Shown here one piece after another: positions 224-28,500 of a stretch of 33,807 bases of DNA (its first letter is position 1; each line of letters opens with the position of its first letter). This stretch comes from Nitrospirota bacterium (GTDB taxonomy: Bacteria; Nitrospirota; Nitrospiria; Nitrospirales; Nitrospiraceae). The notes beneath the pieces were generated by a model. It ran no database searches and was not told the origin of the DNA. It saw only the letters and a program-made list of their open reading frames with translations. The position numbers and the translations under genes were made by a program. Location of the stretch: the NCBI GenBank assembly GCA_005877775.1, contig VBOJ01000085.1, forward strand, positions 1 to 33,807, written 5' to 3'.

Positions 224-302
224 CAAGTTAAAAGTAAAAGGGCAAAGGTAAAAAGTGAGGGTTGTTTCCGGCTGTAAATTTTTACTTTCTACTTTTTACT
301 TG
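224..302. repeat. Inverted heptamer-type repeat element A (polA upstream)
   Basis: AT-rich gap made of a degenerate 7-bp unit close to AAGTAAA. Arms 224-241 and 285-302 are inverted copies matching at 15 of 18 positions, with further loose units between them. The right arm contains the stop codon of the PGPGW gene (296-298) and the left arm ends 3 bp before the polA start. It is one of six elements of this architecture in the window and could fold into a hairpin in the transcript. Confidence 0.7.
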
Positions 303-706
303 TCGTCCGCGACCGTCAGCGGCGGTTGGCCGAATTTTTGCCGTATGGCATTGATCGTCTTGAGCACTGTGGGCTGGCCAACGAGCTTGCTCTCCAGACG
401 ACGCTTGCCGGGAAAGTCCATCAGGGACAGGCCGATCAGCATCGTCAGGAGGCCCTGGCCAGGCAGGAACAGCATGGCCACGCCGGCCAAAAAAAACACG
501 ACCCCCACGACATTCTTCAGAATCAGTCCAACCCATCGGAGCACCGGATGATGCTCTTTCATCCAGGTCCGCGGGTACCGCACGTCGAAGTACTGAGGAG
601 GAAGTCTGACCAGGATGAATGGAATGACGATCAAGCTACCAATGAAGCCGACGATCGAGAGGACGAACAGGCTCCACAGAATTTCCTTAGAAAATAGTGC
701 CTCCAT
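296..706 (-). CDS. PGPGW-family small membrane protein
   Basis: A 136-residue protein with an N-terminal membrane segment (about residues 8-33) and a second hydrophobic stretch (about 60-95) containing FLPGQGLLTMLIGLSLMDFPGKRR. This proline-glycine loop is the signature of the PGPGW putative transmembrane family (PF09656), whose function is unknown. The charged tail after residue 100 is probably cytoplasmic. The ATG at 704-706 has an AGGA-like sequence about ten bases upstream. It is transcribed toward polA, and its stop codon lies inside a degenerate inverted repeat. The family is recognised from the motif; I cannot assign a biochemical role. Confidence 0.75.
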   Translation of the reverse strand: MEALFSKEILWSLFVLSIVGFIGSLIVIPFILVRLPPQYFDVRYPRTWMKEHHPVLRWVGLILKNVVGVVFFLAGVAMLFLPGQGLLTMLIGLSLMDFPGKRRLESKLVGQPTVLKTINAIRQKFGQPPLTVADDK

Positions 707-756
707 CGGGCGGGCATCCTAACACGCACACGGACACCAAACAAGCAGGGTTCCGG

Positions 757-785
757 TTTACGCGAGCACGGTGCCAGGCTATAAT
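757..785 (+). promoter_or_regulatory. Putative sigma-70 promoter of the hut genes
   Basis: TTTACG (757-762, four of six consensus bases) and a perfect TATAAT (780-785) are separated by 17 bp. The GTG start of hutH at 794 is only 8 bp past the -10 box, so transcription would begin at or next to the start codon and the mRNA may be leaderless. Confidence 0.55.
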
Positions 786-793
786 CCGGTGCT

Positions 794-2317
794 GTGAAGC
801 CGCTCTTCCTGACCGGAGAAGATCTGACGTTACGCTCGTTCTACGAGGTCGTCCTGGACAAACGGCCGGTCCGGGTCTCTCCTATCGCCACAAGACGGAT
901 GGCGGCGGCATATCGAGTGGTCAAGCGTGTTGCGGCCCGAGCCGATCCGGTCTACGGCGTGACGACCGGGTTCGGGAAGCTGGCCGATCAACGCATTTCG
1001 CCATCCGACATCGAGCAACTACAGCTCAATCTAGTCCGCAGCCACGCCGCCGGCGTAGGCGAGCCGCTGACGCGGGAGGAAACGAGGGGAGTCCTCCTCC
1101 TCCGCGCCAACGTGCTGGCGCGAGGCCACAGCGGCGTGCGCGCACTGATCGTCGAATATCTGCTCACGCTCCTCAATCGCGACGTGCTCCCGGTGATCCC
1201 TTGCCGGGGATCGGTCGGGGCGAGCGGTGATCTGGCACCGCTGGCGCATCTGGCGCTGATTCTTATCGGCGAGGGTGAGGCGTTCGTCGGCACGAGCCGG
1301 CGATCAGGCCGAGCCGCCCTTGCGCGCGTTGGCTTGACGCCCCTACACTTGGAAGCGAAGGAAGGTTTGTCGCTCTTGAATGGAACCCAGGCGATGCTCG
1401 CGTTGGGGCTCCTGGCCCTGCGCCGATGCGAGCTGCTGGTTGATGCAGCCGACATCGCCGGCGCCCTGTCGTTGGAGGCACTCAAGGGAACCCCGGTCGC
1501 CTTCGATCCTCGGATTCACCGGCTTCGTCCCTACCGTGGCCAGGCGGCAGTCGCCTCCAACCTGCGCGCGCTGGTCGCAGGCAGTGAGATCCGGGCTTCG
1601 CATGTGCATTGTCCTCGCGTCCAGGATGCCTATAGCCTGCGGTGCATGCCGCAGGTCCACGGAGCGGTCCGCGACGCGCTGGATTACGTGCGCAGCACGC
1701 TCTGCATCGAGATGAACAGCGTGACCGACAACCCACTCGTGTTTCCGGAACGCGAAGAAGTGCTCTCTGGCGGGAACTTCCATGGGCAACCGCTGGGGTT
1801 GGTGCTGGATCATCTGGCGATCGCGATGACGGAGTTGGCCAGCATCTCCGAACGCCGCATCGAGCGATTGATTAACCCCGAATACGGCGACCTCCCCCCA
1901 TTTCTCAGCCCGCATCCGGGGCTGAACTCCGGGTTCATGCTGGCTCAAGTCACGGCGGCGGCGCTGGCTTCTGAAAACAAGGTCCTCTCCCATCCGGCTT
2001 CGGTGGATTCCATTCCGACCTCCGGAAACCAGGAGGACCACGTCAGCATGGGCATGGGGTCAGCCCTCAAACTCAGGCAGATCCTGTCCAACGCCGAACA
2101 CATCCTGGCCATCGAACTGCTCTGCGCTGCCCAAGGGGTGGACTTCCATCGTCCGTTACGGGCGGGGGCCGGCAGTCGCCAGACCATGAAGCTGATTCGC
2201 CAGCGGGTCGCGCATCTCGATCAAGACCGTGTACTGGCCCCTGATATCGAACGCATTCGTGCCCTGGTGGCAAGCGGAGTCTTGACCACCGTCCTATCCA
2301 CCTCCAGACACACATAG
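794..2317 (+). CDS. hutH: Histidine ammonia-lyase
   Basis: Converts L-histidine to trans-urocanate and ammonia, the first step of histidine breakdown in the cytoplasm. The 507-residue length is normal for the family. The sequence GSVGASGDLAPLAHL contains Ala143-Ser144-Gly145, the triad that cyclises into the MIO electrophile, and YGVTTGFG (Tyr54) is the conserved active-site loop. TDNPL and the Q-rich SGNQEDHVSMG segment also fit. The GTG start at 794 gives the usual N-terminus; no Shine-Dalgarno sequence precedes it, and a TATAAT box lies 8 bp upstream, so it is possibly leaderless. It is followed within 11 bp by a small secreted-protein gene and then hutU, which supports an operon. Phenylalanine/tyrosine ammonia-lyases are related, but the hut context decides the call. 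Confidence 0.96.
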   Translation: MKPLFLTGEDLTLRSFYEVVLDKRPVRVSPIATRRMAAAYRVVKRVAARADPVYGVTTGFGKLADQRISPSDIEQLQLNLVRSHAAGVGEPLTREETRGVLLLRANVLARGHSGVRALIVEYLLTLLNRDVLPVIPCRGSVGASGDLAPLAHLALILIGEGEAFVGTSRRSGRAALARVGLTPLHLEAKEGLSLLNGTQAMLALGLLALRRCELLVDAADIAGALSLEALKGTPVAFDPRIHRLRPYRGQAAVASNLRALVAGSEIRASHVHCPRVQDAYSLRCMPQVHGAVRDALDYVRSTLCIEMNSVTDNPLVFPEREEVLSGGNFHGQPLGLVLDHLAIAMTELASISERRIERLINPEYGDLPPFLSPHPGLNSGFMLAQVTAAALASENKVLSHPASVDSIPTSGNQEDHVSMGMGSALKLRQILSNAEHILAIELLCAAQGVDFHRPLRAGAGSRQTMKLIRQRVAHLDQDRVLAPDIERIRALVASGVLTTVLSTSRHT

Positions 2318-2328
2318 AGGAGTCTGTC

Positions 2329-2742
2329 ATGATCCTTTTCCTTGGCTCTGACACCCACCGCACGGGGACGACCTTCGCCGGTGTGGCTTTGGTCGTCTCG
2401 GCTCTCGTACTCATCAGCCTCCCGTGGGTGACCTCTGCCTCCGCAGCCGAGCCATCACCTCCTCCTGCGACCGCGACGCCGCCCGCCGGCCAAGAGCTCC
2501 AGGTCGAGGTCACGAAAAAAGGGCTGGGGAAGGAGGTCTCGATCAAAAGAGGCAACAAGGAGTGGTTCATGCTGATCGAAGTGACACCGGAGAATACCGT
2601 GGTGGTCCGACAAGAAAAAGAAAACGAGACCTACCTGCTTGACGAAAGCGAAACGCACGATCGCCCCATGACCAAAGGGGAGGTGGACGTGGCGATCGAG
2701 GATTTTATCAACAGCGTCAAGACACAGGTGAACCGCAAGTGA
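2329..2742 (+). CDS. Hypothetical secreted protein between hutH and hutU
   Basis: A 137-residue protein that I do not recognise. The N-terminus has a hydrophobic stretch (about residues 15-36) ending in SASAAEP, a plausible signal peptidase site. A Pro/Ala-rich linker follows, then a charged soluble domain of about 90 residues with an [13 protein letters not shown]-type beta pattern and a C-terminal helix ([16 protein letters not shown]). A GAGGAG sequence lies at the right distance upstream of the ATG. Its stop codon overlaps the GTG of hutU by four bases (GTGA), so the two are probably translationally coupled. A periplasmic protein inserted inside a cytoplasmic catabolic operon is unusual; it might sense or bind a substrate, but nothing in the sequence shows that. 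Confidence 0.75.
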
Positions 2743-4394
2743 ACAGGCCCATTCGCGCGCCGCGCGGCAAGACCTTGACCTGCAAAGGGTGGGCGCAGGA
2801 AGCAGCCCTCCGTATGCTGATGAATAACCTGGACGACGAGGTCGCCGAAAAACCAGGCGAGCTGATCGTCTACGGCGGTGCGGGCAAGGCGGCGCGGAAT
2901 TGGGACGCGTACGCCGCAATCGTCCGTGAGTTGACCGCGCTGGAGGGAGATCAGACCCTACTGGTTCAGTCTGGCAAGCCGGTAGGCGTGCTCCGAACCC
3001 ACGAATTCGCACCGAGAGTGCTGATCGCCAACGCGAACCTCGTCGGGCAGTGGGCCACCTGGGACGAGTTTCGCCGTTTAGAAGCACTCGGGTTGATCAT
3101 GTATGGACAGATGACCGCCGGGTCCTGGATGTACATCGGCACGCAGGGCATCGTCCAGGGCACCTATGAAACCTTTGCGGCCGCCGCCGATCGGCATTTC
3201 GGAGGTGACCTGTCAGGACACTTCGTCCTCACCGGAGGCATGGGCGGGATGGGCGGAGCACAGCCGCTGGCCGCAACAATGAATGGGGCTTCCATCCTGT
3301 GCGTTGAGGTGGACCAAGCCAAGATCGAACGGCGGATGAAGACTGGTTATTGCGACCGGATGACGACGTCATTGGATGAGGCGTTACAGTGGGTCCTGTC
3401 GGCGAAAACGGATCACAAGCCTTTGTCGGTCGGACTCGTGGGCAATTGCGCCACGGTGCTGCCGGATTTGGTCCGACGAGGCGTCGTCCCGGACCTTGTG
3501 ACCGATCAGACGTCGGCGCACGATCCCCTCAACGGCTATATCCCAGCTGCCCTGTCGCTGGAGGATGCGGCTCAGCTTCGCCAGCGAAGCCCGAAGGCCT
3601 ACATGGATCGCGCGCTGGATTCGATCACCGCCCATGTGCGGGCGATGCTGGACTTGCAGAAAGCCGGCGCGGTCGTCTTCGATTACGGGAACAACATCAG
3701 GACCATGGCCTTCCAGCGGGGTGTGCAGGACGCCTACGCCTTCCCCGGCTTCGTCCCCGCCTACATTCGACCGCTCTTTTGCGAGGGGCGAGGACCCTTC
3801 CGCTGGATTGCGCTTTCAGGTGAGCCATCGGACATCGCCGCGACTGATGACGCAGCGCTCGAGCTGTTTCCAGAGAACCGCTCGCTGCAACGTTGGATCA
3901 GGCTGGCTCGGGAGAAGGTTCGCTTCCAGGGTCTTCCCGCTCGCATCTGCTGGTTAGGATTCGGGGAACGTGCTGCCATGGGGCTGCGGATCAACGAATT
4001 GGTCAACAAGGGAACCCTGAAGGCTCCGGTCGTCATCGGTCGGGATCACATGGACGCCGGCTCGGTCGCGTCTCCCTACCGGGAGACCGAGGCGATGCGT
4101 GACGGGAGCGATGCCATCGCCGACTGGCCGATCCTGAATGCGCTGCTGAATACCGCATCCGGCGCCAGTTGGGTGTCCTTCCACCATGGCGGCGGGGTCG
4201 GCATCGGCTATTCCTTGCATGCGGGGCAGGCCACTGTCGCAGACGGATCGAGAGCGGCGGCGACCAAGATTGAGCGCGTGCTCACGAACGACCCAGGTCT
4301 GGGTATCTTGCGGCATGCCGACGCTGGCTATCCCTCAGCAGTCGCGGCCGCGCAGCGCCACGGGCTTCGCCTTCCAGTACCCCCTTCCTCCTAG
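2739..4394 (+). CDS. hutU: Urocanate hydratase
   Basis: Adds water to urocanate to give 4-imidazolone-5-propionate, using tightly bound NAD+ as an electrophile. The 551-residue length matches the family. Diagnostic stretches are [12 protein letters not shown] (about 165-176), the glycine-rich NAD region, and [20 protein letters not shown], in which Cys404 is the conserved active-site cysteine. The [11 protein letters not shown] segment near the N-terminus is also typical. The GTG start overlaps the end of the preceding gene by four bases. It is the third gene of the hutH cluster; the next two enzymes of the pathway (hutI, ftcD) lie 2-4 kb away on the opposite strand, separated by unrelated genes. 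Confidence 0.96.
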
Positions 4395-4410
4395 CCGCTT
4401 CCAACGCTGC

Positions 4411-4440
4411 TTGTCACCGCACCAATTCGGACGTTATAAT
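4411..4440 (+). promoter_or_regulatory. Putative sigma-70 promoter of the DsrE-family gene
   Basis: TTGTCA (4411-4416) and TATAAT (4435-4440) are separated by 18 bp. The predicted transcript starts near 4447 and leaves a short leader carrying GGAG (4457-4460) before the ATG at 4466. It lies just past the hutU stop, so this gene can be expressed apart from hut. Confidence 0.65.
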
Positions 4441-4465
4441 CGGTCGCCATCCCCATGGAGCGCCT

Positions 4466-4885
4466 ATGAAACACAAACCACGGTTCGTGATTTTCGCTCA
4501 CAATGCCACCTACGACAAACTTCACCAGGTGGCAACGCTGGGAATGACCGCCGCAGCTATGGGGAAAGACGTGGTCGTCGTTCTGCTCTTCTGGACCATT
4601 AAGAAGCTGGCCCAGGGGCAGATTGATGTCGTGGATTTCCCCCCCGAGTATGGGAAGGCTGCCGAAGAGGTCAGTCGTCTTCTGAAAGAAAAGAAGGTGC
4701 CCAGGATTTCTGAAATGTTTCAGGAGGCCCGGCAGGTGGGCCACTTCCGATTGATCGCCTGCAGCGCCGGTCTTGAATACATGGGAGTGGACCCCGAAGC
4801 CGTCGCCAAGAACGTGGATGAAGTGATGGGGCTTCCGGCAATCCTCTCGTTAACGGCTGGCGCCGAAACTACCTTATTTATTTAA
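4466..4885 (+). CDS. DsrE-family sulfur-relay-like protein
   Basis: A 139-residue DsrE/DsrF-fold protein. It shows the family pattern of an N-terminal beta strand (RFVIFAHNATYDKLHQVATLGMTAAAMG), a VVVVLLFW strand, and a late LIACSAGLEYMGV segment whose Cys is in the position of the sulfur-carrying cysteine of DsrE2-like proteins. Family members accept or pass on persulfide sulfur in the cytoplasm; some instead bind membranes or small molecules. A second DsrE-like protein at 10263-10793 shares the same pattern and an identical LFI C-terminus, so the two are probably distant paralogs. This copy has its own promoter and no TusA beside it. It ends 5 bp before an inverted repeat that separates it from the convergent nth. 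Function beyond the family is not shown. Confidence 0.75.
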   Translation: MKHKPRFVIFAHNATYDKLHQVATLGMTAAAMGKDVVVVLLFWTIKKLAQGQIDVVDFPPEYGKAAEEVSRLLKEKKVPRISEMFQEARQVGHFRLIACSAGLEYMGVDPEAVAKNVDEVMGLPAILSLTAGAETTLFI

Positions 4886-4890
4886 CGGCC

Positions 4891-4980
4891 GTGAGGCGTC
4901 AGGCGTAAAGCGTGAGGGGATTGACATAAACCAGGCTCCCTGTGTTCTCGTCACCTCACGCCTAACCCCTTACCCCTAAC
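4891..4980. repeat. Inverted heptamer-type repeat element B (dsrE/nth)
   Basis: Arms 4891-4920 and 4951-4980 are inverted copies matching at 23 of 30 positions, with a 30-bp loop. Each arm is four copies of a 7-bp unit (GTNAGGN). The element exactly fills the gap between two converging genes: the left arm starts 5 bp after the DsrE stop and the right arm contains the nth stop codon (4976-4978). It could serve as a bidirectional hairpin, although there is no T-tract. Confidence 0.75.
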
Positions 4981-5632
4981 GAGACTTCAGGACTCCCACC
5001 CGGTCACAGTACTTCACTAGCTTGCACCGACTGCAGTAGGGCGAGACCGGCTGGCAAAGGTTTTGGCCAAACGGCACCAAAAGATCATTGAACGTGATCC
5101 AATACCGGCGTGGCAACTTGCGCCGCAGCGCCTGTTCCGTTTCCTCAGGACTGTTCGTCTTAACATAACCCCACCGGTTGCTGATCCGATGCACATGAGT
5201 GTCCACGCAGATCCCCGGCTTCCCGTATCCCACCGTCACCACGAGATTGGCCGTCTTCCGTCCTACGCCCTTGAGAGTCAGCAGGTCTTCGAGCGAGTCC
5301 GGAACTCGGCCGTTGTACTCAGTCAGCAACCGACGACAGATTGCACGAATTTGCTTCGCTTTCGTCCGATAGAAGCCGACGGGGTAGATCGCTCGTTCGA
5401 TGCGGCGCAGGGAGAGTCGCAGCATGCTGCTTGGATCAGAGGCCAGTGCAAACAGGCGTCGGCTCGCGTCAGCAGTCGTTCGGTCCTTGGTCCTGAGGCT
5501 GAGCAGGCAGGCAATCAGAATTCGGAAGGCGTCGCGTGATTCCTTGGCCACCACGCCGACAATAGGCTCTTGCCACTGCCTTACGTCCCCTTTCAGGATG
5601 CGAATGACCGGATGGATGTCCGTTTCGCGCAT
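4976..5632 (-). CDS. nth: Endonuclease III (DNA glycosylase/AP lyase)
   Basis: Removes oxidised pyrimidines from DNA and cleaves at the abasic site in base-excision repair. The helix-hairpin-helix reads LKGVGRKTANLV with catalytic Lys126, and the catalytic Asp144 is in ICVDTHVHR; the 18-residue spacing equals that of E. coli Nth (120/138). The C-terminal iron-sulfur cluster motif C-x6-C-x2-C-x5-C is complete (CQPVSPYCSRCKLVKYC). I chose the ATG at 5630-5632 (218 residues). The frame stays open to a GTG at 5791, but that would overlap rpsU and adds 53 residues of unlikely sequence; neither start has a good Shine-Dalgarno sequence. The stop codon lies in the right arm of an inverted repeat. Confidence 0.93.
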   Translation of the reverse strand: MRETDIHPVIRILKGDVRQWQEPIVGVVAKESRDAFRILIACLLSLRTKDRTTADASRRLFALASDPSSMLRLSLRRIERAIYPVGFYRTKAKQIRAICRRLLTEYNGRVPDSLEDLLTLKGVGRKTANLVVTVGYGKPGICVDTHVHRISNRWGYVKTNSPEETEQALRRKLPRRYWITFNDLLVPFGQNLCQPVSPYCSRCKLVKYCDRVGVLKSR

Positions 5633-6046: not shown

Positions 6047-7594
6047 TCATAGGCTTTTCAGTTCTACAAGACGCTGTTCAATCGCCCTGGCCCGCTGAGT
6101 AAGATCGTTAACAACCAATTGATTTGCCTGTGATTTTAAGTTGGCATAGACGTTTTCAAGCCCTCCCTCGATTGCCGCCCGCGCCATCAGCAGCCCAACC
6201 TTGAGATCGGGTACGACGGTCGGTTTGGTTTGAGCCAGCAGGGTGCGTAGCAACAATGCGGTCTCACTCGCCAGCGTTGCGGTCTCCAGCGGCACTTCGC
6301 TGGCAACGCGAAGGCTTGTTGCAATCGCATGTGGCCTGGACGAATCAGTTTTTGGAAGCCGGTAGGCCGTCACCACACCAGCGTAGGCGTCAGCATCAGC
6401 TTGGATAAGACCTCGGAGTTTCTCACTCAGCTCTTGTAACCGGCGCTCTGCCGCTTTCAGGTCCCTCGTGTCTCGTGGTCCCTTCGCCTTTGAGCTCTGC
6501 AGCTCTTTCTGATCAGCGGGAGGCCCGATCCTGCAGGCCATGACTCCCAAGGCCGCGGCAAGAGAGCCAGCCAGGGCGGCGACACTGCCGCCCCCCGGAG
6601 TGGGGGTGCCGGCTGCGACTGCCGACAAAAACTCTGAGACAGACGAAGCCAGATCGGCCTTCTGGTCATCGCGGGCTTTGGCTTCACGAGCCAAGACCAG
6701 CTCCAGGCGGGTTTCCAAAACCTGGGTTGAATCGAAGCGTTCCAATTTGAGGAAGAACTCCGCTCCCTGGATCAGCGCCCGTTGGGGCACCAGTCCGATG
6801 AGTTCGCTCCCGCAGACCTCGACGCCGCGCTGTTCGCCCTCACGCCTGACTGCCTCAAACGCCACATGGATCGGGGTCTCTTCGAAATTCGTCAGGTTCA
6901 TTGAGACTTGCACAAGGCGGCGGCTCTTGAGTTCGATCCCGATCGCCTTCAGATAGGGCAGCCCTCCGCTCGAAAACCGGATTGTCTTGGCGATGGTCTT
7001 GGCGACCGCCAGGTCATCCGTCTGCAGATTGACATTGTACGCGATGAGCGGCGGCCGCGCGCCGACCACGGTCGCCCCGGCCGTCGGGTGAAGGTGCCGA
7101 GGGCCGAAATCCGGCACCCAGTCAGGCTCTGATGCCATTCGGCTGGCAAGCCCTTCCAGCCCGCCTCGTCGTATCGTTTCAAGGTTGGCGCGGTCCGGAT
7201 ATTCCGTCGCCCGCTCGTACAGGAAGACAGGAATCCCCAATTCGTTTCCGATCCGTTCCCCCACCAGTCTGGACAAGGAAATGCAATCCTCCATCGTCAC
7301 GCCCTTGATGGGTACAAACGGAACGACATCCGTTGCGCCCACGCGCGGGTGTCCACCCTGATGCACCCGCAAATCAATCAGACCTGCTGCCGTGCGAGTG
7401 GCCTGAAAAGCTGCCTCGGCCACTGCCTCCGGCAGGCCCACAAACGTGAGAACCGACCGGTGATGGTCCTGATCCATTTCCTCATCGAGAACAAACACCC
7501 CCTCCACAGCCCGAATAGCGTTCACAAGGGCATGCACTGTCGCAGCGTTGCGCCCTTCGCTAAAATTCGGTACGCACTCCACAAGGCGTTCCAT
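6047..7594 (-). CDS. ftcD: Glutamate formimidoyltransferase / formimidotetrahydrofolate cyclodeaminase (fused FTCD)
   Basis: A fused two-enzyme protein of 515 residues. Residues 1 to about 300 are the transferase (MERLVECVPNFSEGR start, VHQGGHPRVGATD with His82 at the catalytic position known from animal FTCD), which moves the formimino group of N-formimino-glutamate to tetrahydrofolate. Residues about 315-515 are the cyclodeaminase (FLSAVAAGTPTPGGGSVAAL), which releases ammonia and makes 5,10-methenyl-tetrahydrofolate. With hutH, hutU and hutI this gives histidine breakdown by the folate-transfer route, in place of HutG or HutF/HutG hydrolysis. The gene follows hutI on the minus strand; the gap holds an inverted repeat whose left arm begins 12 bp before this ATG. 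The fused form is well known in animals and several bacteria. Confidence 0.93.
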   Translation of the reverse strand: MERLVECVPNFSEGRNAATVHALVNAIRAVEGVFVLDEEMDQDHHRSVLTFVGLPEAVAEAAFQATRTAAGLIDLRVHQGGHPRVGATDVVPFVPIKGVTMEDCISLSRLVGERIGNELGIPVFLYERATEYPDRANLETIRRGGLEGLASRMASEPDWVPDFGPRHLHPTAGATVVGARPPLIAYNVNLQTDDLAVAKTIAKTIRFSSGGLPYLKAIGIELKSRRLVQVSMNLTNFEETPIHVAFEAVRREGEQRGVEVCGSELIGLVPQRALIQGAEFFLKLERFDSTQVLETRLELVLAREAKARDDQKADLASSVSEFLSAVAAGTPTPGGGSVAALAGSLAAALGVMACRIGPPADQKELQSSKAKGPRDTRDLKAAERRLQELSEKLRGLIQADADAYAGVVTAYRLPKTDSSRPHAIATSLRVASEVPLETATLASETALLLRTLLAQTKPTVVPDLKVGLLMARAAIEGGLENVYANLKSQANQLVVNDLTQRARAIEQRLVELKSL

Positions 7595-7606: not shown

Positions 7607-7676
7607 AGGTTTAGGCTAAGGTTTAGGTTGAGACAAGAGCGGAGCTTCCCCTTAACCTTGACCTCAGCCTCAACCT
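7607..7676. repeat. Inverted hexamer-type repeat element C (hutI/ftcD)
   Basis: Arms 7607-7632 and 7651-7676 are inverted copies matching at 21 of 26 positions, with an 18-bp loop. The unit is 6 bp (GGTTTA / GGCTAA / GGTTGA). The right arm holds the hutI stop codon (7670-7672), so the last residues of hutI are encoded next to the repeat. The element sits between two genes of one presumed operon. Confidence 0.75.
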
Positions 7677-8938
7677 TTTCTGTAGACGATGGCCCCCTTT
7701 TTGACCACCGTCTCACAGTGATTCATCCCGAAGAAGTACGGGATCTCACGGTAATCGGAGACGTCCATGATCACCAGGTCGGCCTGTTTCCCCACTTCCA
7801 GCGATCCCACCAATCCTCCCCGGCCAACCGCATAGGCTCCGTTAATGGTGGAAGCCACGATCGTCTCTGCCGGGCTCATCCGCATCTGGGAGCAGGCCAG
7901 CGAGAGGATCATCTGCATGCTCAGCGTCGGAGAACTGCCGGGGTTGAAATTGGTGGCCAGCGCGACCGGAATTCCAGTCTCGATCAGTTGCCGGGCCGGC
8001 GGATAACGGTTAGGTCCAAGATGCAGGACTGTGCCGGGGAGAAGGGTAGCCATCGTGCCGGTCCCCCGCATACTTCGAATATCATCATCTGTCACCTGAT
8101 CCAAATGATCCACAGAGACCGACCGGAGTCCCACGGCCATCTTGGTCGCCCCTGAATGAGTCATCTGTTCTGCATGCAGCTTGAGCTGAAGCCCGGCACT
8201 GGCTGCCGTGTTCATCATCATCTTCGTTTCAGCGATCGAAAAATAGCCGCGGTCGCAAAAGACGTCAAAGAACTCTGCCAATCCCTCCCGAGCGACCTGC
8301 GGAATCAGCTCCCTCTTCACCAACTCGATGTACTGTGCGCGCTTCGTCCTGAAGCGAGCAGGGACATCATGGGCCAATAGGGTTGGGACAAGATCAAAAG
8401 TTCCACGAGTGGCCACCGAGCGAATCGCCCGCAACATTTTCAGTTCCTGGCCAATCTCCAGACCGTAGCCGCTTTTCACCTCGGCGGTGGTGGTTCCATA
8501 TTCAAGGAACAGCTTGACCATTCTCTCAAGTCGATCGACGAGGGCTTGCTCGCTGGCCACGCGCACCAGCTTGGCACTCGCCCCAATCCCGCCCCCTCTC
8601 TTGGCGATCTGTTCATAGGTCGCTCCGCCGATACGAGCCACATAGTCATCAACGCGGGTCGCGGCGAACAGGGCATGGGTGTGAGAATCCACGAACCCGG
8701 GCAGGACCACCTTTCCCCTCGCATCCAGACAGACGGCTCGCCGTGATTCCGGCGCCTTGCGAATACGGTCCACCGATCCCACGAGTTGCACGGTCCGGTC
8801 TCTGAGCAGCAGCGCGCCGTTGCGGACGAGCCCTAGCGCTGCCATCTCTTGACCGGCTCGCGGGCGGCGAGGACCTCGGAGTGTCAGCAGTTGTCCGCAA
8901 TTGACCACCAGGAGGGTTCTTTCCTCGTCGGTCAGCAT
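7670..8938 (-). CDS. hutI: Imidazolonepropionase
   Basis: Hydrolyses 4-imidazolone-5-propionate to N-formimino-L-glutamate. It is a cytoplasmic amidohydrolase of 422 residues, the usual length. LPGFVDSHTHALFA carries metal-binding His86 and His88; KLHAEQMTHSGATKMA, VDHLD and ALATNFNPGSSPTLSM are further family signatures around the metal site. The N-terminal beta domain with the NCGQLLTL start also fits. It is the promoter-proximal gene of a minus-strand hutI-ftcD pair. No convincing promoter is visible in the 310-bp gap upstream. The stop codon lies in a repeat arm. Confidence 0.96.
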   Translation of the reverse strand: MLTDEERTLLVVNCGQLLTLRGPRRPRAGQEMAALGLVRNGALLLRDRTVQLVGSVDRIRKAPESRRAVCLDARGKVVLPGFVDSHTHALFAATRVDDYVARIGGATYEQIAKRGGGIGASAKLVRVASEQALVDRLERMVKLFLEYGTTTAEVKSGYGLEIGQELKMLRAIRSVATRGTFDLVPTLLAHDVPARFRTKRAQYIELVKRELIPQVAREGLAEFFDVFCDRGYFSIAETKMMMNTAASAGLQLKLHAEQMTHSGATKMAVGLRSVSVDHLDQVTDDDIRSMRGTGTMATLLPGTVLHLGPNRYPPARQLIETGIPVALATNFNPGSSPTLSMQMILSLACSQMRMSPAETIVASTINGAYAVGRGGLVGSLEVGKQADLVIMDVSDYREIPYFFGMNHCETVVKKGAIVYRKG

Positions 8939-9248
8939 CGCCCTCCGCCTCGCGCTGGGAGCCGACTGCTGTTCACTTCCGCGGAAGGGTGGTACGGTAA
9001 CTGCGTTGCCAGATCAAGTCAAGGCAGCGGCATCGGCCAACGGAGCGGTGATGCAAGCCGGTGCAGCGTTTTTCCTGCATCACAACGCACCGTGCGTTTC
9101 AACCAGTCGCACACTGTCAGCCAAACTGTAAGCCTTGAGGATACGGCGAGATTGTGGGGCAAGAACCGCAGCAACACCCGATCGTGTCGCGCCAGGGCGC
9201 GTTGTCTCCTGAGAATAGAGAGAGAGAGAGAGAGGAAAACCAGAACTA
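8939..9248. other. 310-bp gap without a recognised gene
   Basis: Lies between the hutI start and the stop of the orphan gene at 9249. I find no convincing reading frame, tRNA, terminator or promoter in it. The only distinct feature is an (AG)9 tract near its right end. Confidence 0.5.
9217..9234. repeat. (AG)9 dinucleotide microsatellite
   Basis: Nine uninterrupted AG units in a non-coding stretch just past the stop codon of the orphan gene at 9249. On the transcript of that gene it would read as a CU tract. Its length could vary between strains. Confidence 0.85.
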
Positions 9249-10175: not shown

Positions 10176-10209
10176 ATCGACTCCCACGCTGCCCCAGGAT
10201 TAAGTGACG

Positions 10210-10260
10210 AGGACCGAGGGCCGAGACTCAGTGCTCAGCACTCAGTCCTCAGTCCTAACT
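10210..10260. repeat. Heptamer repeat element D (dsrE2/tusA)
   Basis: Five consecutive 7-bp units (NCTCAGN) run from 10226 to 10260, preceded by two or three inverse units. Outer arms 10210-10223 and 10243-10256 match as inverted copies at 11 of 14 positions, and an inner perfect palindrome (6 bp around base 10236) lies at the centre. The element ends 3 bp before the dsrE2 stop codon (10263-10265). Confidence 0.7.
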
Positions 10261-10262
10261 TT

Positions 10263-20817: not shown

Positions 20818-21666
20818 GTGAGAACAAGGCGCATCTTAGCTTCCCTACCCTTGATGGCCCTCACGATCGGAGGCCTCGTTGCTGCCGATGCCGGGTCGTC
20901 AGTGCCGTTATCGGTCGAACGAGTGGGAAGAGACAGTGCACCGATGGTGCTGGTGCCAACTGGTCCCTTTCAGATGGGTGTTCCCCCAGGAGACCGAGAC
21001 GGAGGACGGGATGAATATCCCCGCCACGAAGTCTATCTCAATACTTTCTCTATCGACAAGTTCGAGGTCACGAACGGGCGCTATCTGGAGTTTATCAAGG
21101 CGACCGGTCATCGAGTGCCGCAGCACCCGAAAGATCCCAACAGAAACCTGTGGCAAGACGGCCTGATGCCGGAATCAATCGCTGACCGGCCCGTGATCAA
21201 TGTGGATTGGTATGACGCGGAGGCCTATTGCCGCTGGGCCGGCAAGCGCTTGCCTACCGAAGCCGAATGGGAGAAGGCTGCGCGGGGCCCCGACGACCGC
21301 CGGTTCCCGTGGGGCAATCTGGAGCCCACCCACAAACACCTCAACTACAACCAGCGCTGGATCGGCGAGAAGACCCTCATGCCGGTGGGCAGCTACGAAG
21401 CCGGGAAGAGCCCCTATGGCGCCTATGATATGGCCGGCAACGTCTGGGAATGGGTCGCAGACTGGTACGATCCGCTTTACTACGAGAAAAGCCCTGCCCA
21501 GAACCCGAAGGGCCCTCAAACCGGCACCCATAAGGTGGTCCGCAGTTCGGGGTGGTATGCCGAGACCCCCTTGGTCCGCATCTTCACCCGCGTGAAGAGT
21601 GACCCCTTGGAGCGCAACCATTCCACAGGCTTCAGATGTGCGCTCAGCGCATCTGAAGCCAAGTAG
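20818..21666 (+). CDS. Secreted SUMF1/FGE-like protein (first copy)
   Basis: A 282-residue protein with a signal peptide (about 1-24, RTRR followed by a hydrophobic core). The rest is one FGE-sulfatase domain (PF03781): MVLVPTGPFQMG, YPRHEVYLNTFSIDKFEVTNGRYLEF, PVINVDWYDAEAYCRWAGKRLPTEAEWEKAARG, YDMAGNVWEWVADWY and GFRCA. True formylglycine-generating enzymes carry a Cys pair after the RGGSW position; here the segment is RSSGWYAETPLVR with no Cys, so sulfatase activation is unlikely and another periplasmic role should be expected. The start is GTG 20818; the ribosome-binding site is weak (AAGG overlapping). A perfect 11-bp-arm hairpin overlaps the last codons. A second copy lies at 27369-28322. 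Confidence 0.82.
   Translation: MRTRRILASLPLMALTIGGLVAADAGSSVPLSVERVGRDSAPMVLVPTGPFQMGVPPGDRDGGRDEYPRHEVYLNTFSIDKFEVTNGRYLEFIKATGHRVPQHPKDPNRNLWQDGLMPESIADRPVINVDWYDAEAYCRWAGKRLPTEAEWEKAARGPDDRRFPWGNLEPTHKHLNYNQRWIGEKTLMPVGSYEAGKSPYGAYDMAGNVWEWVADWYDPLYYEKSPAQNPKGPQTGTHKVVRSSGWYAETPLVRIFTRVKSDPLERNHSTGFRCALSASEAK
21628..21660 (+). other. 3' hairpin over the last codons of the SUMF1-like gene
   Basis: Perfect 11-bp arms (21628-21638 and 21650-21660) with an 11-base loop that can form three more pairs. It ends 3 bp before the stop codon at 21664 and has no T-tract, so it may protect the 3' end rather than terminate. Confidence 0.55.
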
Positions 21667-21671
21667 GATAT

Positions 21672-22132
21672 GGTGATCTGGTGATTTGGTGAGGCAAGGG
21701 AAGCGATGGCGCAGAAGATTTGAGGCAGCGAACAAAGCGCTTCGCGCTCCGTATCGTGAAGCTTTCCCAGACACTCTGGAAAGGGAAGGAAGCCAGGGTG
21801 CTAGGAGACCAGTTGCTCAGGGCAGGGACGGCAGTAGCGGCAAACTACAGGGCAGCGTGCCGAGCACGATCTAGGGCCGAATTCATCGCGAAGTTGGGTG
21901 TGGTTGTGGAAGAGGCGGACGAGACGGTCTTCTGGTGCGAACTGCTTGAAGAGGCAGGGATCGTGCCTCATGAGGATATGAAAGAGGTCGTGGGAGAGGC
22001 CAGAGAACTTTTGTCTATCTTCTCGGCCGGCCGAAAGACAGCCAAGACCCGAACGACCTGACCTCTTTGCACTTCAGCCTCCATCACAGTACGGAATCAA
22101 TCTTGATGACTTCACCAGATCAGCAAATCACT
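21672..22132. mobile_element. Repeat-flanked unit F carrying a four-helix-bundle gene (putative)
   Basis: Inverted arms 21672-21694 and 22110-22132 match at 18 of 23 positions and consist of an 8-bp unit (GGTGATCT / GGTGATTT). They enclose the 4HB reading frame and almost nothing else. The left arm starts 5 bp after the stop codon of the SUMF1-like gene; the right arm encodes the first residues of HemD. No target-site duplication is evident. The arm architecture is the same as that of the five short elements in the window. Calling it mobile is inference. Confidence 0.5.
21720..22061 (+). CDS. Four-helix-bundle protein (S23 / 23S rRNA-IVS type), N-terminus disrupted
   Basis: A 113-residue reading frame with the core of the S23/IVP four-helix-bundle family (PF05635): RQRTKRFALRIVKLSQTL, VLGDQLLRAGTAVAANYRAACRARSRAEFIAKLGVVVEEADETVFWCELLEEAGIV. 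Proteins of this family are encoded in 23S rRNA intervening sequences and as scattered single genes; the related Avd protein works with reverse transcriptase in diversity-generating retroelements. Their own function is mostly unknown. The natural start seems to be ATG 21706 (AGGGA upstream), reading MAQKI and then a stop; the expected continuation is in another frame, as if about seven bases were lost near 21719. The frame can be read only from TTG 21720. It may be a recent pseudogene. Confidence 0.7.
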   Translation: MRQRTKRFALRIVKLSQTLWKGKEARVLGDQLLRAGTAVAANYRAACRARSRAEFIAKLGVVVEEADETVFWCELLEEAGIVPHEDMKEVVGEARELLSIFSAGRKTAKTRTT

Positions 22133-22975
22133 AAATCTCACTTTGGCGGCCTCAAAGTGGCGGCGTTCGAAAGCCGGATGGCCGAGGAAATGGACCGCCT
22201 GATCGCCCGCTACGGCGGACAACCGCTGGTCGCGCCTTCGATGCGTGAGATTCCCCTTGAAGACAACCATGCCGTGTTCCGGTTCGGAGATCAGCTCCTG
22301 GCCCGTCAGTTCGACATGGTGATCCTTCTGACCGGTGTGGGCACCAGGACGATGGTCGAGGCGCTCAAGACTCGACAGCCGCTGGACACCATCAAAGCCG
22401 CGCTCGCCCGCGTCAGCCTGGTGGCCCGGGGACCCAAGCCGATCGCCGCGCTGAAAGAACTCGGCCTGACGCCAGAGATCGCAGTGCCGGAGCCCAATAC
22501 CTGGCGAGACGTCCTCCAAGCGCTCGATGATCGAAAGCCCGTGGCTGGTCTGAGGGTTGCGGTCCAGGAATACGGGGTCTCGAACGCCGAGCTACTGGAC
22601 GCGCTGCGGCAGCGAGGTGCAATCGTGACCAGGGTCCCAGTCTATCGCTGGGCGCTCCCGGAGGATACGGATCCGCTCAGACAGGTTTTAGACGCGATCC
22701 TTGCGGGTCAGGTGGACGTGGTCTTGATCACCAACGCAGTACAGGTGGACCATGTCATGCAGATGCTATCGGAAGACAACCAGGCTGAGCGGTTTCGGCA
22801 GGTCATGCGCCGGATAGTCGTCGCGTCGGTGGGGCCCACTGCCAGCGAACGGCTGAGAAGCCACGGGCTACCGGTTGATCTGGAGCCTTCCCACCCCAAG
22901 ATGGGCATCCTCGTCAAAGAGGCGAGCGAACGAGCCCCCCTGCTTCTTCAGCAGAAACGGCCAGCAGTCCTCTGA
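22106..22975 (+). CDS. hemD: Uroporphyrinogen-III synthase
   Basis: Closes linear hydroxymethylbilane with inversion of ring D to give uroporphyrinogen III, in tetrapyrrole synthesis. HemD proteins are poorly conserved, but the two-lobed pattern is clear: GLKVAAFESRMAEEMDRLIARYGGQPLVAPSM, VILLTGVGTRTMVEAL, LKELGLTPEIAVPEPNTWRDVLQAL, VAVQEYGVSNAELLDALRQRGAIVTRVPVYRW, VVLITNAVQVDHVMQML and VASVGPTASERLRSHGLPVDLEPSHPKMGILVKE. Length is 289 residues. The only reasonable start is ATG 22106 (a TTG lies 13 codons earlier); it and the next 13 codons lie in the right arm of the 4HB repeat unit, so the N-terminus was probably replaced. No other heme gene is adjacent. Confidence 0.8.
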   Translation: MTSPDQQITKSHFGGLKVAAFESRMAEEMDRLIARYGGQPLVAPSMREIPLEDNHAVFRFGDQLLARQFDMVILLTGVGTRTMVEALKTRQPLDTIKAALARVSLVARGPKPIAALKELGLTPEIAVPEPNTWRDVLQALDDRKPVAGLRVAVQEYGVSNAELLDALRQRGAIVTRVPVYRWALPEDTDPLRQVLDAILAGQVDVVLITNAVQVDHVMQMLSEDNQAERFRQVMRRIVVASVGPTASERLRSHGLPVDLEPSHPKMGILVKEASERAPLLLQQKRPAVL

Positions 22976-24934: not shown

Positions 24935-25223
24935 CCGCGCCCCTCACTTGTGCGGAGCTCCAGGTACAGGCTCGGTCACCAAGACTTGATCAATCATTCA
25001 ACCCTCTGGCTCTGATCAACAAATACCCTAGTTGACTGGATGGTCTCCCAGCTCTCCCAGAAACACGGATCGTGAACGGAGTCTGTAGGTTGAGTTTACT
25101 TCTTCGGATGACGGAAGGCTAGGCCGAACGAAGATCTCGGCAATGGGAGTAGACAGATAGGAAGACAGGTCGAACGCTCTCGATTGGATACTCGGCCACT
25201 TAGACAATGCTTCGGCGGTGGCC

Positions 25224-25901
25224 TTAGTTGTCAGAATGCGGCAGCGTGATGGGCGATAGTTCGGCGGGCAGCAGCAAGGTCAGCGAAAACGGCGCGGTGA
25301 CGTCCTTTTGCGCGACGGCGCACAGGGAGCAGAGTTGCGGCGCCGATTTCGGCGGAAACGACAGCAGCGCGGGGAAGACGAACAAAGGTAGCAGCGCCGA
25401 CGAAGACGCCAGATGGAGCCGGAGGGCCATCAGCACGTCCCGCACGCGCGCGGCCTGCTGCTCCTCCGGAACATGATCGGCCACGGCAATGCCGGCTTCC
25501 CACAATGGTCTCGTAATGCCGACCGGTACGGGTAGTCCCATTTCGTGAGCGGCGGGAGAGACGTCAATCAAATACCCTCTCTGAATCGCTTCTTCACGGC
25601 TGATCATCTGCGGCTGTGGAACATCGAGTGGCTTGTCGGACTCCGCCTGTGGCTGCGATAGTTCCGAGGCGGCAGGGGCCTGGAGATCGCGCACGGTCGG
25701 TTCGTCAGCAGCGCGCGTTTCAACTGATTCGAGCTGATCGGCGCCAGATGGCTGATCCGAAAGGACAGGCGCCGGCAACGCCTTCACAATGCCGTCGTAC
25801 ACGACCCGGGCGGACAGGGACCACGCGGGGTTGAACGGACGCCCCGTGAAAGCCGCCTCCGCGGCTTTCTTTTCATCATGGGAGAGCGCACGCGATTTCA
25901 T
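25224..25901 (-). CDS. Hypothetical protein with DUF6573-like motif
   Basis: A 225-residue protein that I recognise only in part. The N-terminal 40 residues (SHDEKKAAEAAFTGRPFNPAWSLSARVVYDG) look like a conserved small domain. A Pro/Glu/Ala-rich low-complexity stretch follows (about 45-95). Then ISREEAIQRGYLIDVSPAAHEMGLPVPVGITRPLWEAG resembles the DUF6573 family, found in many mobile-element and chromosomal proteins with unknown function. The C-terminal third is hydrophobic but not clearly membrane-spanning. I start at ATG 25899-25901; a TTG eight codons earlier is possible. The gene ends in front of a 290-bp gap that holds no gene I can see. It follows the CCA-adding enzyme gene by 33 bp. 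Confidence 0.6.
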   Translation of the reverse strand: MKSRALSHDEKKAAEAAFTGRPFNPAWSLSARVVYDGIVKALPAPVLSDQPSGADQLESVETRAADEPTVRDLQAPAASELSQPQAESDKPLDVPQPQMISREEAIQRGYLIDVSPAAHEMGLPVPVGITRPLWEAGIAVADHVPEEQQAARVRDVLMALRLHLASSSALLPLFVFPALLSFPPKSAPQLCSLCAVAQKDVTAPFSLTLLLPAELSPITLPHSDN

Positions 25902-25934
25902 GACGTGTCGTAGATAACTCCTCAACGAGCGAGG

Positions 25935-27296
25935 TCAAGGGGTGACGGCATTGATGATTCGCTTGGCCAGGTTCCTCTCATCGGCCTTGGTCTGAACCTC
26001 GCCGTTCAGGCGAGCGCTGAGCAACTGACTCAGGATTTTCTTAAAAATGGGGCCTGGTTTTAGACCCATGGTTTTCAAGTCGGTTCCGGTCAGGATCGGT
26101 TTGACGTGCCTGTAGGTGGTGAGGTAAGCAGAAACGCGGCGTTTGACCGATTCAGATCTGGCCTTCGCCATGAGGAACAGCAGGGTCTCGTCGGAAAGGC
26201 CGACCAGCACCCGATACACCTCGGCTGGTCGTAAAGGCGGGCGCCTGGCCAGGCGCCGCAGGAGCTTGCTTGACGAATCGCGACTGACTCTGATCTTTTC
26301 GGCATGCCGTACCGAAAGTTTGAGCCGCCTCAGGGTCTCGCCGACCGCCTGGCTCGGGATCACTTCCATGAGCGCCATGAAATAGACGAGCCAGCCGTCC
26401 ATCAGGTCTGCAGGGGACCCCGAAGACGCGCCTGCGACACTTACCTTTCGATCCGCCCAATTCAACGAGGTACGCTTGTACCAGTCGAGCACCTTTGGGA
26501 CTGCCTTCAGGAGGACATCCAGTCGAGCGGACCATTTCAGCGCCGGATGGACGAAGTGGAGCAGGTTCAGTGCTCCCAAGCGAGCGATCATCTTGCGCGG
26601 TTCCTCTTCGGAGAGTAGCAGGATCAATTCTTCGGAGAGCCGTGAGCCGGATAGACGATGGATCAGATCGATCTTGCCCACTCCTTTGATCAGCGCCAAG
26701 GTTTCCGTCCCAAGCCGGAATCCGAAGCGCTGCTCAAATCGAATGGCCCGGAACACCCGTGTCGGGTCCTCCACGAAGCTCAGGCTATGCAGGACACGAA
26801 TTGTCCTCTTGTTCAGGTCTCGCTGACCTCCATAGAAATCCATGAGCTCCCCGAAATGGCCCGGGTTGAGACGGATGGCCAGCGTATTGATCGTGAAGTC
26901 GCGGCGGTAGAGATCTTCATTAATCGAACTTCGTTGAACGGTGGGTAGAGCAGTCGGGTATTCATAATGTTCGGTTCGGGCGGTGGCAACGTCCAGCTTG
27001 AACCCGTCCGGAAAGACGATGACGGCCGTCTCAAAGCGATCATGCGCTTTCACTTCCGCCTCCGCCGGTCTGGCCAGTGCACGGGCATAGGCGATGCCGT
27101 CTCCTTCGATGACGAGATCCAGATCCAGGGTGGGTTGTCCCAGGAGCAGATCGCGCACAAAGCCTCCGACCACAAACGCCGACACCGAGGTTCGTTCGGC
27201 CAACTCCCCTGCCTGTTTCAGTATCCGGAAAACCCGGCTCGGGAGACGACCTTGCAACATCGTTGGGTGGCGCCGAATAGACGACAGGCTGCGCAC
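25935..27296 (-). CDS. CCA-adding or A-adding tRNA nucleotidyltransferase (class II)
   Basis: A polymerase-beta-superfamily enzyme of 453 residues that completes or repairs tRNA 3' CCA ends. SAFVVGGFVRDLLLGQPTLDLDLVIEG contains the GG and the metal-binding Asp58-x-Asp60. SINEDLYRRDFTINTLAIRL and DPTRVFRAIRFEQRFGFRL are the second and third class-II motifs, followed by a helical neck and body. Nitrospirota and relatives often split CCA addition between CC- and A-adding enzymes, and poly(A) polymerase is a close relative, so specificity is not fixed here. The GTG start 27294-27296 has AGGGA upstream; ATG 27260 lacks a ribosome-binding site. The CBS and DHH domains fused to some homologs are absent. 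Confidence 0.88.
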   Translation of the reverse strand: MRSLSSIRRHPTMLQGRLPSRVFRILKQAGELAERTSVSAFVVGGFVRDLLLGQPTLDLDLVIEGDGIAYARALARPAEAEVKAHDRFETAVIVFPDGFKLDVATARTEHYEYPTALPTVQRSSINEDLYRRDFTINTLAIRLNPGHFGELMDFYGGQRDLNKRTIRVLHSLSFVEDPTRVFRAIRFEQRFGFRLGTETLALIKGVGKIDLIHRLSGSRLSEELILLLSEEEPRKMIARLGALNLLHFVHPALKWSARLDVLLKAVPKVLDWYKRTSLNWADRKVSVAGASSGSPADLMDGWLVYFMALMEVIPSQAVGETLRRLKLSVRHAEKIRVSRDSSSKLLRRLARRPPLRPAEVYRVLVGLSDETLLFLMAKARSESVKRRVSAYLTTYRHVKPILTGTDLKTMGLKPGPIFKKILSQLLSARLNGEVQTKADERNLAKRIINAVTP

Positions 27297-27368
27297 AGCG
27301 AAGATGTCCCTCTAGGATTCGACCGCTTGGTGACAGGGGCCAGTACCTTCCACCTTCAACTGAAGATG

Positions 27369-28322
27369 TTAGCGTAGCCCGGTTGCTTGTGGGATTGTGG
27401 TCGGCTGGTTTTGGGTATCCGTCACATCGCGCAGATCTCTGGCACAGCGGAAGCCCAGCCAGTTCATCTTGGTGTTTGGGTCGGCCCCGTTGCGCTGGGC
27501 GGGACGAACGCTGGGGGTGCTGTCAATCCACCCGCCACCACGAAAGGCCTTCTGCGTCCCTTTCTCCGGCCCCTTCGGATTGCGATCCGGCGCCGACTTG
27601 TAATAGTTTGCGTCGTACCAGTCGGCCGTCCATTCCGCCACATTGCCGGCCATTTGATAGACGCCGTAAGGGCTGACTGCGTTCTCGTACTTGTCCACCG
27701 AGATGATCGGTGGATAAAGCAGCAGTCGCTCCGGCCGGTCGCGGACCGGCCCAGACAAGCCGGTGCGGCCAAAGTTCGCCCGGCTCAGTCCCGCCGGCTG
27801 ATTGCCCCAGGGATAGATACGCCCGTCATCGCCGCGCGCCGCCTTCTCCCATTCCGCCGAGGTCGGCAAGCGCTTCCCCGCCCACTTGCAGTAGGCGTCG
27901 GCGTCGTGCCAGGACACGTGCATCACCGGGTGGTTGGCCATCGTTTCCTGGAAATTGCCTCCGTCATACTGCCAGTCCAAGAGAGGCGGCCGATCGGTGG
28001 TGAGCACAAATTTGAGATACTGGACCGTCGTGACTTCGTACTTGTCGATCTCGTAAGCATCCAGATAGACCTTCCGCTGAGGAAACTCCGGCTGATATGC
28101 GTTCCGATCCACTTTCTTGTCGCTGCCCATGATGAACCAGCCGGCCGGAATGAAGACCATTTCATCATGAGCCGGCAACTTCGCACGCTCAGCCGCTATT
28201 TTTTTCCCTTCTGGGGTCCACTCGCGGGTTACGTCCGCAACATCCAGCGCGCCGGCAACCCTGGCAAGGCCAACCAGTGCCAGGACGACACCTGCCATGC
28301 CTCTTTTCTTTTTCCTAAACAC
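27369..28322 (-). CDS. Secreted SUMF1/FGE-like protein (second copy)
   Basis: A 317-residue protein. I start at GTG 28320-28322, ten bases after AAGGAGG: this gives VFRKKKRGMAGVVLALVGLARVAG, a good signal peptide. The domain matches the copy at 20818 segment by segment: MVFIPAGWFIMGSD, KVYLDAYEIDKYEVTTVQYLKF, PVMHVSWHDADAYCKWAGKRLPTSAEWEKAARG, YQMAGNVAEWTADWYDANYY, NPKGPEKGTQKAFRGGGW, GFRCA. The Cys pair of active formylglycine-generating enzymes is missing here as well (GGGWIDSTPSVRP). It follows a LolA/DUF4412-like secreted protein gene, with repeat element E in the gap, so both may act in the periplasm. Substrate unknown. Confidence 0.82.
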   Translation of the reverse strand: MFRKKKRGMAGVVLALVGLARVAGALDVADVTREWTPEGKKIAAERAKLPAHDEMVFIPAGWFIMGSDKKVDRNAYQPEFPQRKVYLDAYEIDKYEVTTVQYLKFVLTTDRPPLLDWQYDGGNFQETMANHPVMHVSWHDADAYCKWAGKRLPTSAEWEKAARGDDGRIYPWGNQPAGLSRANFGRTGLSGPVRDRPERLLLYPPIISVDKYENAVSPYGVYQMAGNVAEWTADWYDANYYKSAPDRNPKGPEKGTQKAFRGGGWIDSTPSVRPAQRNGADPNTKMNWLGFRCARDLRDVTDTQNQPTTIPQATGLR

Positions 28323-28351
28323 TCGCGCGATTCCTCCTTGTTGCAAGGTAC

Positions 28352-28500
28352 GTCACTCGTCATCCGTTATTCGTCATCCGTTATCCGTCAGTCGTTAAAG
28401 ATTGGTCGTGAACTCCTGGAGCCGATTCGTTGCTCCTTGCGAATGACGACTGACGAGTAACTAATGACGTTCCCGTTGACGAATGACGACTGACCAATCT
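28352..28500. repeat. Inverted heptamer-type repeat element E
   Basis: The left arm is seven 7-bp units near GTCATCC (28352-28400). The right arm consists of inverse units near GAATGAC (28441-28494) and contains a perfect 14-bp direct repeat (28441-28454 and 28481-28494). A perfect 9-bp inverted pair (28399-28407 and 28492-28500) links the inner end of the left arm with the outer end of the right arm. The last bases overlap the stop codon (28499-28501) of the next gene. It is the longest of the non-coding elements. Confidence 0.75.

Follow-up and report, generated by a model that had tools for sequence, protein, structure and literature searches.

The window and its six elements

We analysed a stretch of 33,807 nucleotides from a Nitrospirota bacterium (contig VBOJ01000085.1, here called the window). 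It makes up contig C251 of a draft genome that is 3.06 Mb in size and 92% complete. The window contains six elements, each consisting of two arrays (arms) of a short degenerate unit, the word, in inverted orientation. All six are placed between protein genes, none in a 23S rRNA helix, and they were found within about 10 bp of where a first-pass annotation had put them. Five are short forms without an S23 open reading frame (ORF). Element 5, which that annotation had taken for a bare repeat, encodes an S23/IVP protein (21669-22135).

222..304: element 1, short form; arms 222-256 and 277-304, word about AAAAGTA (7-mer)
4892..4979: element 2, short form; arms 4892-4919 and 4952-4979, word GTNAGGN (7-mer)
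7607..7678: element 3, short form; 6-mer word GGTTNA, between FTCD (6047-7594) and hutI (7670-8938)
10204..10258: element 4, short form; word CTCAGTN / GACTGAG (7-mer), left arm degenerate, between tusA and a DsrE-like gene
21669..22135, + strand: element 5, full-length form; arms 21669-21692 and 22112-22135, 8-mer word TTTGGTGA, around an S23 ORF
21720..22061, + strand: S23 / 23S_rRNA_IVP four-helix-bundle gene of element 5; TTG start, 113 aa, Pfam PF05635 E=2e-15
22106..22135, + strand: hemD start and N-terminal codons within the right arm of element 5 (ATG ACT TCA CCA GAT CAG ..., read directly)
28350..28498: element 6, short form; arms 28350-28398 and about 28439-28498, word GTCATYC / CGAATGA (7-mer)

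The elements were scored with a comb statistic that takes three units per side and compares all left units with all reverse-complemented right units in the best phase. Elements 1 to 6 score 0.76, 0.76, 0.76, 0.67, 0.83 and 0.81, and all of them outscore 300 of 300 dinucleotide shuffles of their own stretch (shuffle maxima 0.57-0.69), which confirms the single inverted-array architecture proposed for them; complementary termini are present in 6/6. Element 4 is the weakest, its score lying under the threshold of 0.70 at which inverted arms were called in scans. Element 2 begins directly past the stop codon of the gene at 4466-4885, and the right arm of element 5 is used in frame by hemD, as it is in two related genomes (G041 and G003).

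Arrays across the genome

The scan for repeats covered 541,740 b of the window's genome (about 18%), in stretches. Period 7 accounted for 52 inverted pairs, period 8 for 5 and period 9 for 6, and locally dinucleotide-shuffled sequence gave none at any of these periods; the elements are thus more frequent than in shuffled sequence, and the opposite outcome did not occur. Direct-orientation pairs at period 7 number 21, fewer than the 52 inverted ones. Inverted pairs at periods 5, 6 and 10 are at or close to background. For element 3, with its period of 6, the genome scan by itself does not discriminate; the element is supported by the local shuffles, by its absence from the sister species used for site comparison (G001, DNA 87-89% identical; spacer 18 bp vs 88 bp) and by the occurrence of its 6-mer word on an S23 element of that species (L069).

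The first-pass annotation gave each element a private word. The elements cluster instead in dialects (gcGTnAg with 13 elements in the sample, nnTGAGT with 13, nnATgGc with 10 and TtTgGTGA with 4), and words of the window's elements are found again elsewhere. Its broader point, that one design carries many words and is not copied from one sequence, is borne out. Within a unit, one to three columns (about two) are typically free and the rest are mostly 80-100% fixed; arms are mostly 4-5 units long, at k=7 and k=8 alike. The full-length form, of about 470 bp, is one S23/IVP gene with an array on either side, the two being inverted relative to each other and made of about 4-5 units of a degenerate word of 6-9 bp (most often 7). 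The short form, of about 90 bp, lacks the gene and has the two arrays separated by a loop of about 25 bp. Elements lie near stop codons (median distance 8 bp), and spacers between divergent genes are under-represented among them (5/48). Words of the GTGAGG, TGAGT and TAA types contain stop codons in all frames; we dropped this as a selected feature, as many S23 words (AGGGTCC, CAGGGGC, AGGCACAG) lack stops.

S23 genes lie between word arrays

The window's genome contains six S23 loci, and at 6/6 the gene is located between inverted arrays, each with a different word. Two of the six copies (L004 and L006) have an in-frame stop and look decayed. The association was assessed at about 205 S23 genes from many bacterial phyla, with controls in which left and right flanks were swapped between loci or the flanks were shuffled. 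Within the phylum itself, arms scoring at least 0.70 flank 54 of 63 S23 genes (swapped 2/63, shuffled 0/63). An independent cross-phylum set from named genomes (Clostridia, Planctomycetota, Acidobacteriota, Bacteroidota, Chloroflexota, Proteobacteria, candidate phyla and others) has arms at 64/80 (swap 10, shuffle 1), Gammaproteobacteria at 29/33, where three loci repeat earlier ones (swap 5, shuffle 0), and cyanobacterial plasmids at 12/12 (swap 3, shuffle 0); additional S23 copies in three relatives have them at 17/20. Pooled, about 85% of the S23 genes lie between inverted degenerate 6-9-mer arrays, compared with about 11% for swaps and 0.5% for shuffles. Swap hits are more frequent in the cross-phylum and cyanobacterial sets because dialects recur.

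Control ORFs of similar size from the window's genome have arms in 4 of 111 cases. Three of these are S23 genes themselves and one is the neighbour of an S23 element, which leaves 1/108 among ORFs that are not S23. The S23 genes are under purifying selection, with ratios of nonsynonymous to synonymous substitution (dN/dS) of 0.06-0.28 in six pairs; synonymous sites were saturated in three further pairs. No 23S rRNA motifs were found at the S23 loci examined, and an Rfam search of 8 S23 loci gave no match. Three loci that can be aligned across phyla (L092, L180, L202) were considered as 23S rRNA insertions and proved to be methyltransferase genes.

The word follows the protein

Among 158 S23 elements, word sharing between copies at unrelated loci depends on protein identity: 94% of pairs share their word at 70% identity or more, 55% at 60-70%, 25% at 55-60% and 8-9% under 40%. 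Word and S23 protein are correlated (Mantel r=0.223, permutation maximum 0.143). Where two elements occupy one locus but their S23 identity is below 0.45 (n=15; for example L001/L068, L003/L089 and L069/L074), the words are mostly unshared. The word follows the S23 protein, not the locus, and therefore belongs to the element rather than to the site.

These data bear on the origin of the arrays. The first-pass annotation suggested slippage plus hairpin-templated synthesis. If arrays arose in this way, from local replication slippage and hairpin-templated repair, words would be private accidents and S23 a bystander. The elements do fold, as RNA, into hairpins with regular mismatches, better than most shuffles (z -2.3 to -5.8), and the number of units differs between two near-identical elements (L108 and L119). 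Folding is expected because the words are inverted; that pairing itself is a kept feature does not follow. Against slippage, a register test of 132 elements found the two arms no more alike at their free columns than after the order of units was shuffled (mean percentile 0.48 for 41 short elements and 0.51 for 86 S23 elements), and one arm is therefore not a template copy of the other. In addition, words recur as dialects within and between genomes and track S23 at unrelated loci, and direct arrays are the rarer ones at period 7. With arms out of register and a word inherited with the S23 protein, this origin is unsupported and we regard it as most improbable. The annotation also offered a family diverging under selection for folding. 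A diverging family is nearer the truth; the constraint appears to act on the unit word and not on folding, and the family is probably one of mobile elements with a coding form.

Turnover at orthologous sites

In the sister species G001, the orthologous sites are empty at 4/6 (elements 3, 5 and 6, and less clearly element 4) and occupied by an element with another word at 2/6 (CTGAGGA at the intergenic site of element 1, CGTTANN at that of element 2). The spacer measures 58 bp vs 211 bp at the site of element 6. Element 4 is not visible there (39 bp vs 87 bp), a less clear absence than those of elements 3 and 6, and its word is present on another S23 element of the same species (L067). Conversely, G001 carries an S23 element at a site where the window has none.

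The site of element 5, the junction between an FGE-sulfatase-like gene and hemD, is empty in many members of the family. Five genera have an S23 element of the TTTGGTGA dialect there (dialect seen in G003, G009, G015 and G041), G010 and G038 have an S23 element with a different word, G020, a congener of G038, is empty, and one genome retains an arm-like remnant. Two elements at unrelated places (L108 and L119) are 94% identical across the element and unrelated outside it.

Several pairs of relatives (L001/L068, L003/L089, L069/L074 and the FGE-hemD junction) hold unrelated S23 elements at a shared site, more often than we expected. Such repeated occupancy of one spacer suggests insertion hot spots or element replacement. 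In the FGE-hemD spacer of two genomes, an arm-less and strongly diverged S23-like ORF (TKQFAIGVLKL...; L284 in G039, L286 in G002) is perhaps a domesticated copy. The window has two FGE-sulfatase-like genes, at 20818-21666 (PF03781) and at 27369-28346 (assigned by similarity alone), and each adjoins an element of the family.

Short elements and resident S23 genes

Short elements are 18-fold denser where S23 is present, with 36 in twenty 20-kb stretches from twelve S23-bearing genomes vs 2 in twenty stretches from eleven S23-free genomes. Their words are closest to the S23 words of their own genome in 4/5 genomes. The case for dependence of the short forms on S23 is strong but not final. At one locus of G001 (L270, contig C72), an S23 element and two short ones share a rare 6-mer word and sit within 2.5 kb of each other, as if the short ones were its local offspring.

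L270, 4254-4344: element with the shared rare 6-mer word
L270, 5180-5260: element with the shared rare 6-mer word
L270, 6296-6738: element with the shared rare 6-mer word

Elements inside genes and between cas genes

Eleven S23 elements lie within open frames of host genes, mostly defence-type DNA methyltransferases, host names being our reading of the sequences, made without database search. Two further S23 genes lie in spacers between cas genes.

L100, L124, L206: S23 elements in BREX PglX-like methyltransferases
L092, L130, L180, L202: S23 elements in a type III-like methyltransferase
L214: S23 element in a DNA polymerase III alpha-like gene
L092, L100, L124, L130, L180, L202, L206, L214: in-gene elements, around 1201-1818 of the locus
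L393, 601-921: S23 gene in a cas6-cas4 spacer, Anabaena sp. 90 plasmid
L400, 601-906: S23 gene in a cas10-cmr3 spacer, Picosynechococcus plasmid

In every in-gene case, S23 is encoded on the strand of its host gene, and its frame relative to the host does not vary. Nine of the in-gene elements were tested, and all nine leave the host frame (frame 2) open, where 0.9 are expected. Elsewhere frame 2 is just slightly stop-poor, and we therefore rejected a general adaptation of S23 to read-through; the pattern looks like purging of stops in the in-gene copies. Some in-gene hosts also hold short elements in frame.

The positions of the elements could also be explained if the arrays were host gene-end elements, such as terminators, mRNA stabilisers or insulators resembling repetitive extragenic palindromes (REPs) and bacterial interspersed mosaic elements, that a host protein, S23, makes use of; turnover would then reflect selection for any such element at a site. 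The short distance to stop codons, the low number between divergent genes and the different elements held by relatives at the same intergenic sites all fit this explanation. It does not account for S23 elements in open coding frames and between cas genes, for the position of the S23 gene within arms whose word goes with S23, or for near-identical units at unrelated loci together with empty sites in many family members. We consider it quite unlikely.

Relation to known repeats and elements

Intervening sequences (IVSs) of 23S rRNA with an S23p ORF are known in Coxiella, Leptospira and Brucella (PMC4990558). They measure about 430 bp, have terminal inverted repeats and are suspected to be selfish or formerly mobile, and in Coxiella tandem heptamers (GACAGAT) of strain-variable number lie ahead of the ORF (PMC4990558). 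That rRNA intervening sequences with an S23 protein are suspected selfish elements is thus already known. Our elements resemble them in the S23/IVP (PF05635) ORF of element 5 and in the inverted termini of all six. Whereas IVSs are described only inside 23S rRNA, ours are intergenic or located in protein genes. They have a word array at either end, the word changes with the S23 lineage, and gene-less short forms are abundant.

Tandem, degenerate, intergenic 7-mers are also shared with repeats of the short tandemly repeated repetitive (STRR) type in cyanobacteria, Xanthomonas, Nostoc and Beggiatoaceae; here 6-, 8- and 9-mers occur as well, and the arrays form inverted pairs, around S23 in full-length forms, unlike stand-alone repeats. 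The heptamer GGGANTN is known from Xanthomonas and Nostoc. In Xanthomonas its arrays are mostly 4 units long, columns 1-4 and 6 are fixed, and a genome has about 70 inverted pairs; the arrays follow the upstream gene at a distance of about 28 nt, avoid divergent spacers and vary in location between species, and they are reported as generally not associated with mobile elements (PMC4692102). The TAACTGA repeat sets of Beggiatoaceae are nearly all direct, not inverted (PMC4679880). Heptamer repeats had been read as simple repeats, quadruplexes or regulators, without a link to S23. One gammaproteobacterial S23 element (L385) is flanked by the word GGGAATC. No protein near-identical to Xcc0516 of Xanthomonas campestris was present in the Gammaproteobacteria sample.

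The short forms resemble miniature inverted-repeat transposable elements (MITEs): they are short, gene-less and intergenic, have inverted ends, apparently rely on a larger partner and are present or absent between relatives (elements 3 and 6, and less clearly 4, are absent in G001). MITEs, however, end in a single fixed sequence and usually come with a target-site duplication and a transposase partner that is catalytic, whereas here the ends are degenerate lineage-specific arrays and the partner is an S23 four-helix ring with no known catalysis. Diversity-generating retroelements (DGRs) have a protein, Avd, that shares the S23 fold but belongs to a different sequence family; in contrast to DGRs, neither a template nor a variable repeat was seen at the elements, and no RVT_1 reverse transcriptase was found in the host's 92% complete draft genome. 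That PF05635 resembles Avd has already been published (PMC10053308). The GTAG-foot palindrome of REPs and their associated transposases (RAYTs) is not part of the arms as described; no search for REP/RAYT was made.

Rickettsia palindromic elements are short palindromes found in frame inside protein genes and between genes; we know of no heptamer array or S23 gene in their description, which sets them apart. We found no literature joining S23 genes with inverted heptamer arrays, in a search that excluded subscription literature and most preprints, and outside rRNA we know of no described equivalent of an element with word arrays and gene-less derivatives.

A probable mobile element family and a possible role of the S23 ring

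We propose, with a probability of about 0.75, that all six elements are members of a single family of small mobile elements, in which the S23-encoding element is the full-length form, the gene-less elements are short, MITE-like and non-autonomous derivatives, and the ends are arrays that would be read by the cognate S23 ring. The proposal is based on the architecture, the association of S23 with arrays, the co-variation of word and protein, presence and absence at sites, the dependence of short elements on S23, and purifying selection. The family is apparently widespread and unrecognised. As each S23 lineage would own a word, several lineages in one genome would give one design with many words.

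Several observations weigh against this proposal. The share of short elements whose word matches that of a resident S23 is only 25-100%, depending on the genome, so that some have no visible partner there; the S23-bearing and S23-free genomes are related by descent, with 400 kb read per group. No target-site duplication was visible at L108/L119 or at the compared junctions, although spacers have diverged. Insertion as a precise reaction is unsupported, since the junctions lack clean edges and no consensus site for it was found. The word could co-vary with the protein through linkage, without recognition, and our tests do not separate recognition of DNA from that of RNA.

A model of one S23 family member (mean pLDDT 96) matches 2gsc, the structure of Xcc0516 (TM-score 0.95), and the DGR protein Avd (4dwl, TM-score 0.83); a second Avd structure, 8ub7, shares the fold as well. 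A later paper describes 2gsc as a pentameric assembly of four-helix bundles (PMC4990558, citing Lin et al. 2006). A five-fold ring, together with arrays of 4-5 units that have a fixed core and free spacer bases, suggests one unit per subunit. The analogy is with TRAP, which binds its repeats. We infer that the homopentameric S23 ring binds tandem units through their fixed bases, perhaps with one unit per ring subunit, and that by joining both ends the ring would render the element, and any short element with the same word, mobile. Cutting and joining would most likely come from a host activity, as S23 has no recognisable catalytic domain.

That same lack of a catalytic domain, and the possibility that other host proteins cut and join, would fit an ordinary transposase that recognises the ends in trans, with S23 as a passenger or regulator. 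A conventional transposase recognises one fixed terminal sequence, whereas here the word goes with the S23 protein and not with one end sequence, and target-site duplications were not seen; we judge this explanation unlikely. Movement could alternatively proceed through RNA, with a reverse transcriptase in trans and S23 acting like the Avd of DGR complexes, whose fold it shares; the classical S23 elements, the 23S rRNA intervening sequences, are excised as RNA hairpins (PMC4990558). The window's genome (92% complete draft), however, gave no RVT_1 reverse transcriptase, and neither did G001 or several near-complete S23-rich genomes, among them G005, G012, G031, G036 and G038. A resident reverse transcriptase was therefore rejected as a partner, and the RNA route is very unlikely.

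More generally, S23 pentamers may represent a transposase-free mode of mobilisation, in which a non-catalytic ring would read words (one per subunit), pair inverted arrays and recruit a host activity to insert or replace DNA, with a specificity that evolves with the ring. This mode might underlie the 23S rRNA intervening sequences, the heptamer repeats and the in-frame insertions in BREX-type and type III methyltransferases. We put this wider scheme forward tentatively, at somewhat less than even odds.

Apart from the elements, the window contains an (AG)9 dinucleotide run between two genes (9217-9234).

Implications

The surveys that list S23/IVP as CRISPR-linked may be picking up insertions, and annotators should treat an S23 gene that lies among cas genes or within a defence methyltransferase as a probable insertion instead of a component of the system. 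The about 150 natural protein-word pairs are usable for studying how specificity is encoded. For S23, also annotated as "four helix bundle protein", an abundant family of known structure, reading the array that flanks its own gene is a candidate role. The proposed family would unite the selfish-looking intervening sequences of 23S rRNA with the intergenic heptamers of cyanobacteria, Xanthomonas and others, and would account for the heptamer repeats long noted in cyanobacteria and Xanthomonas.

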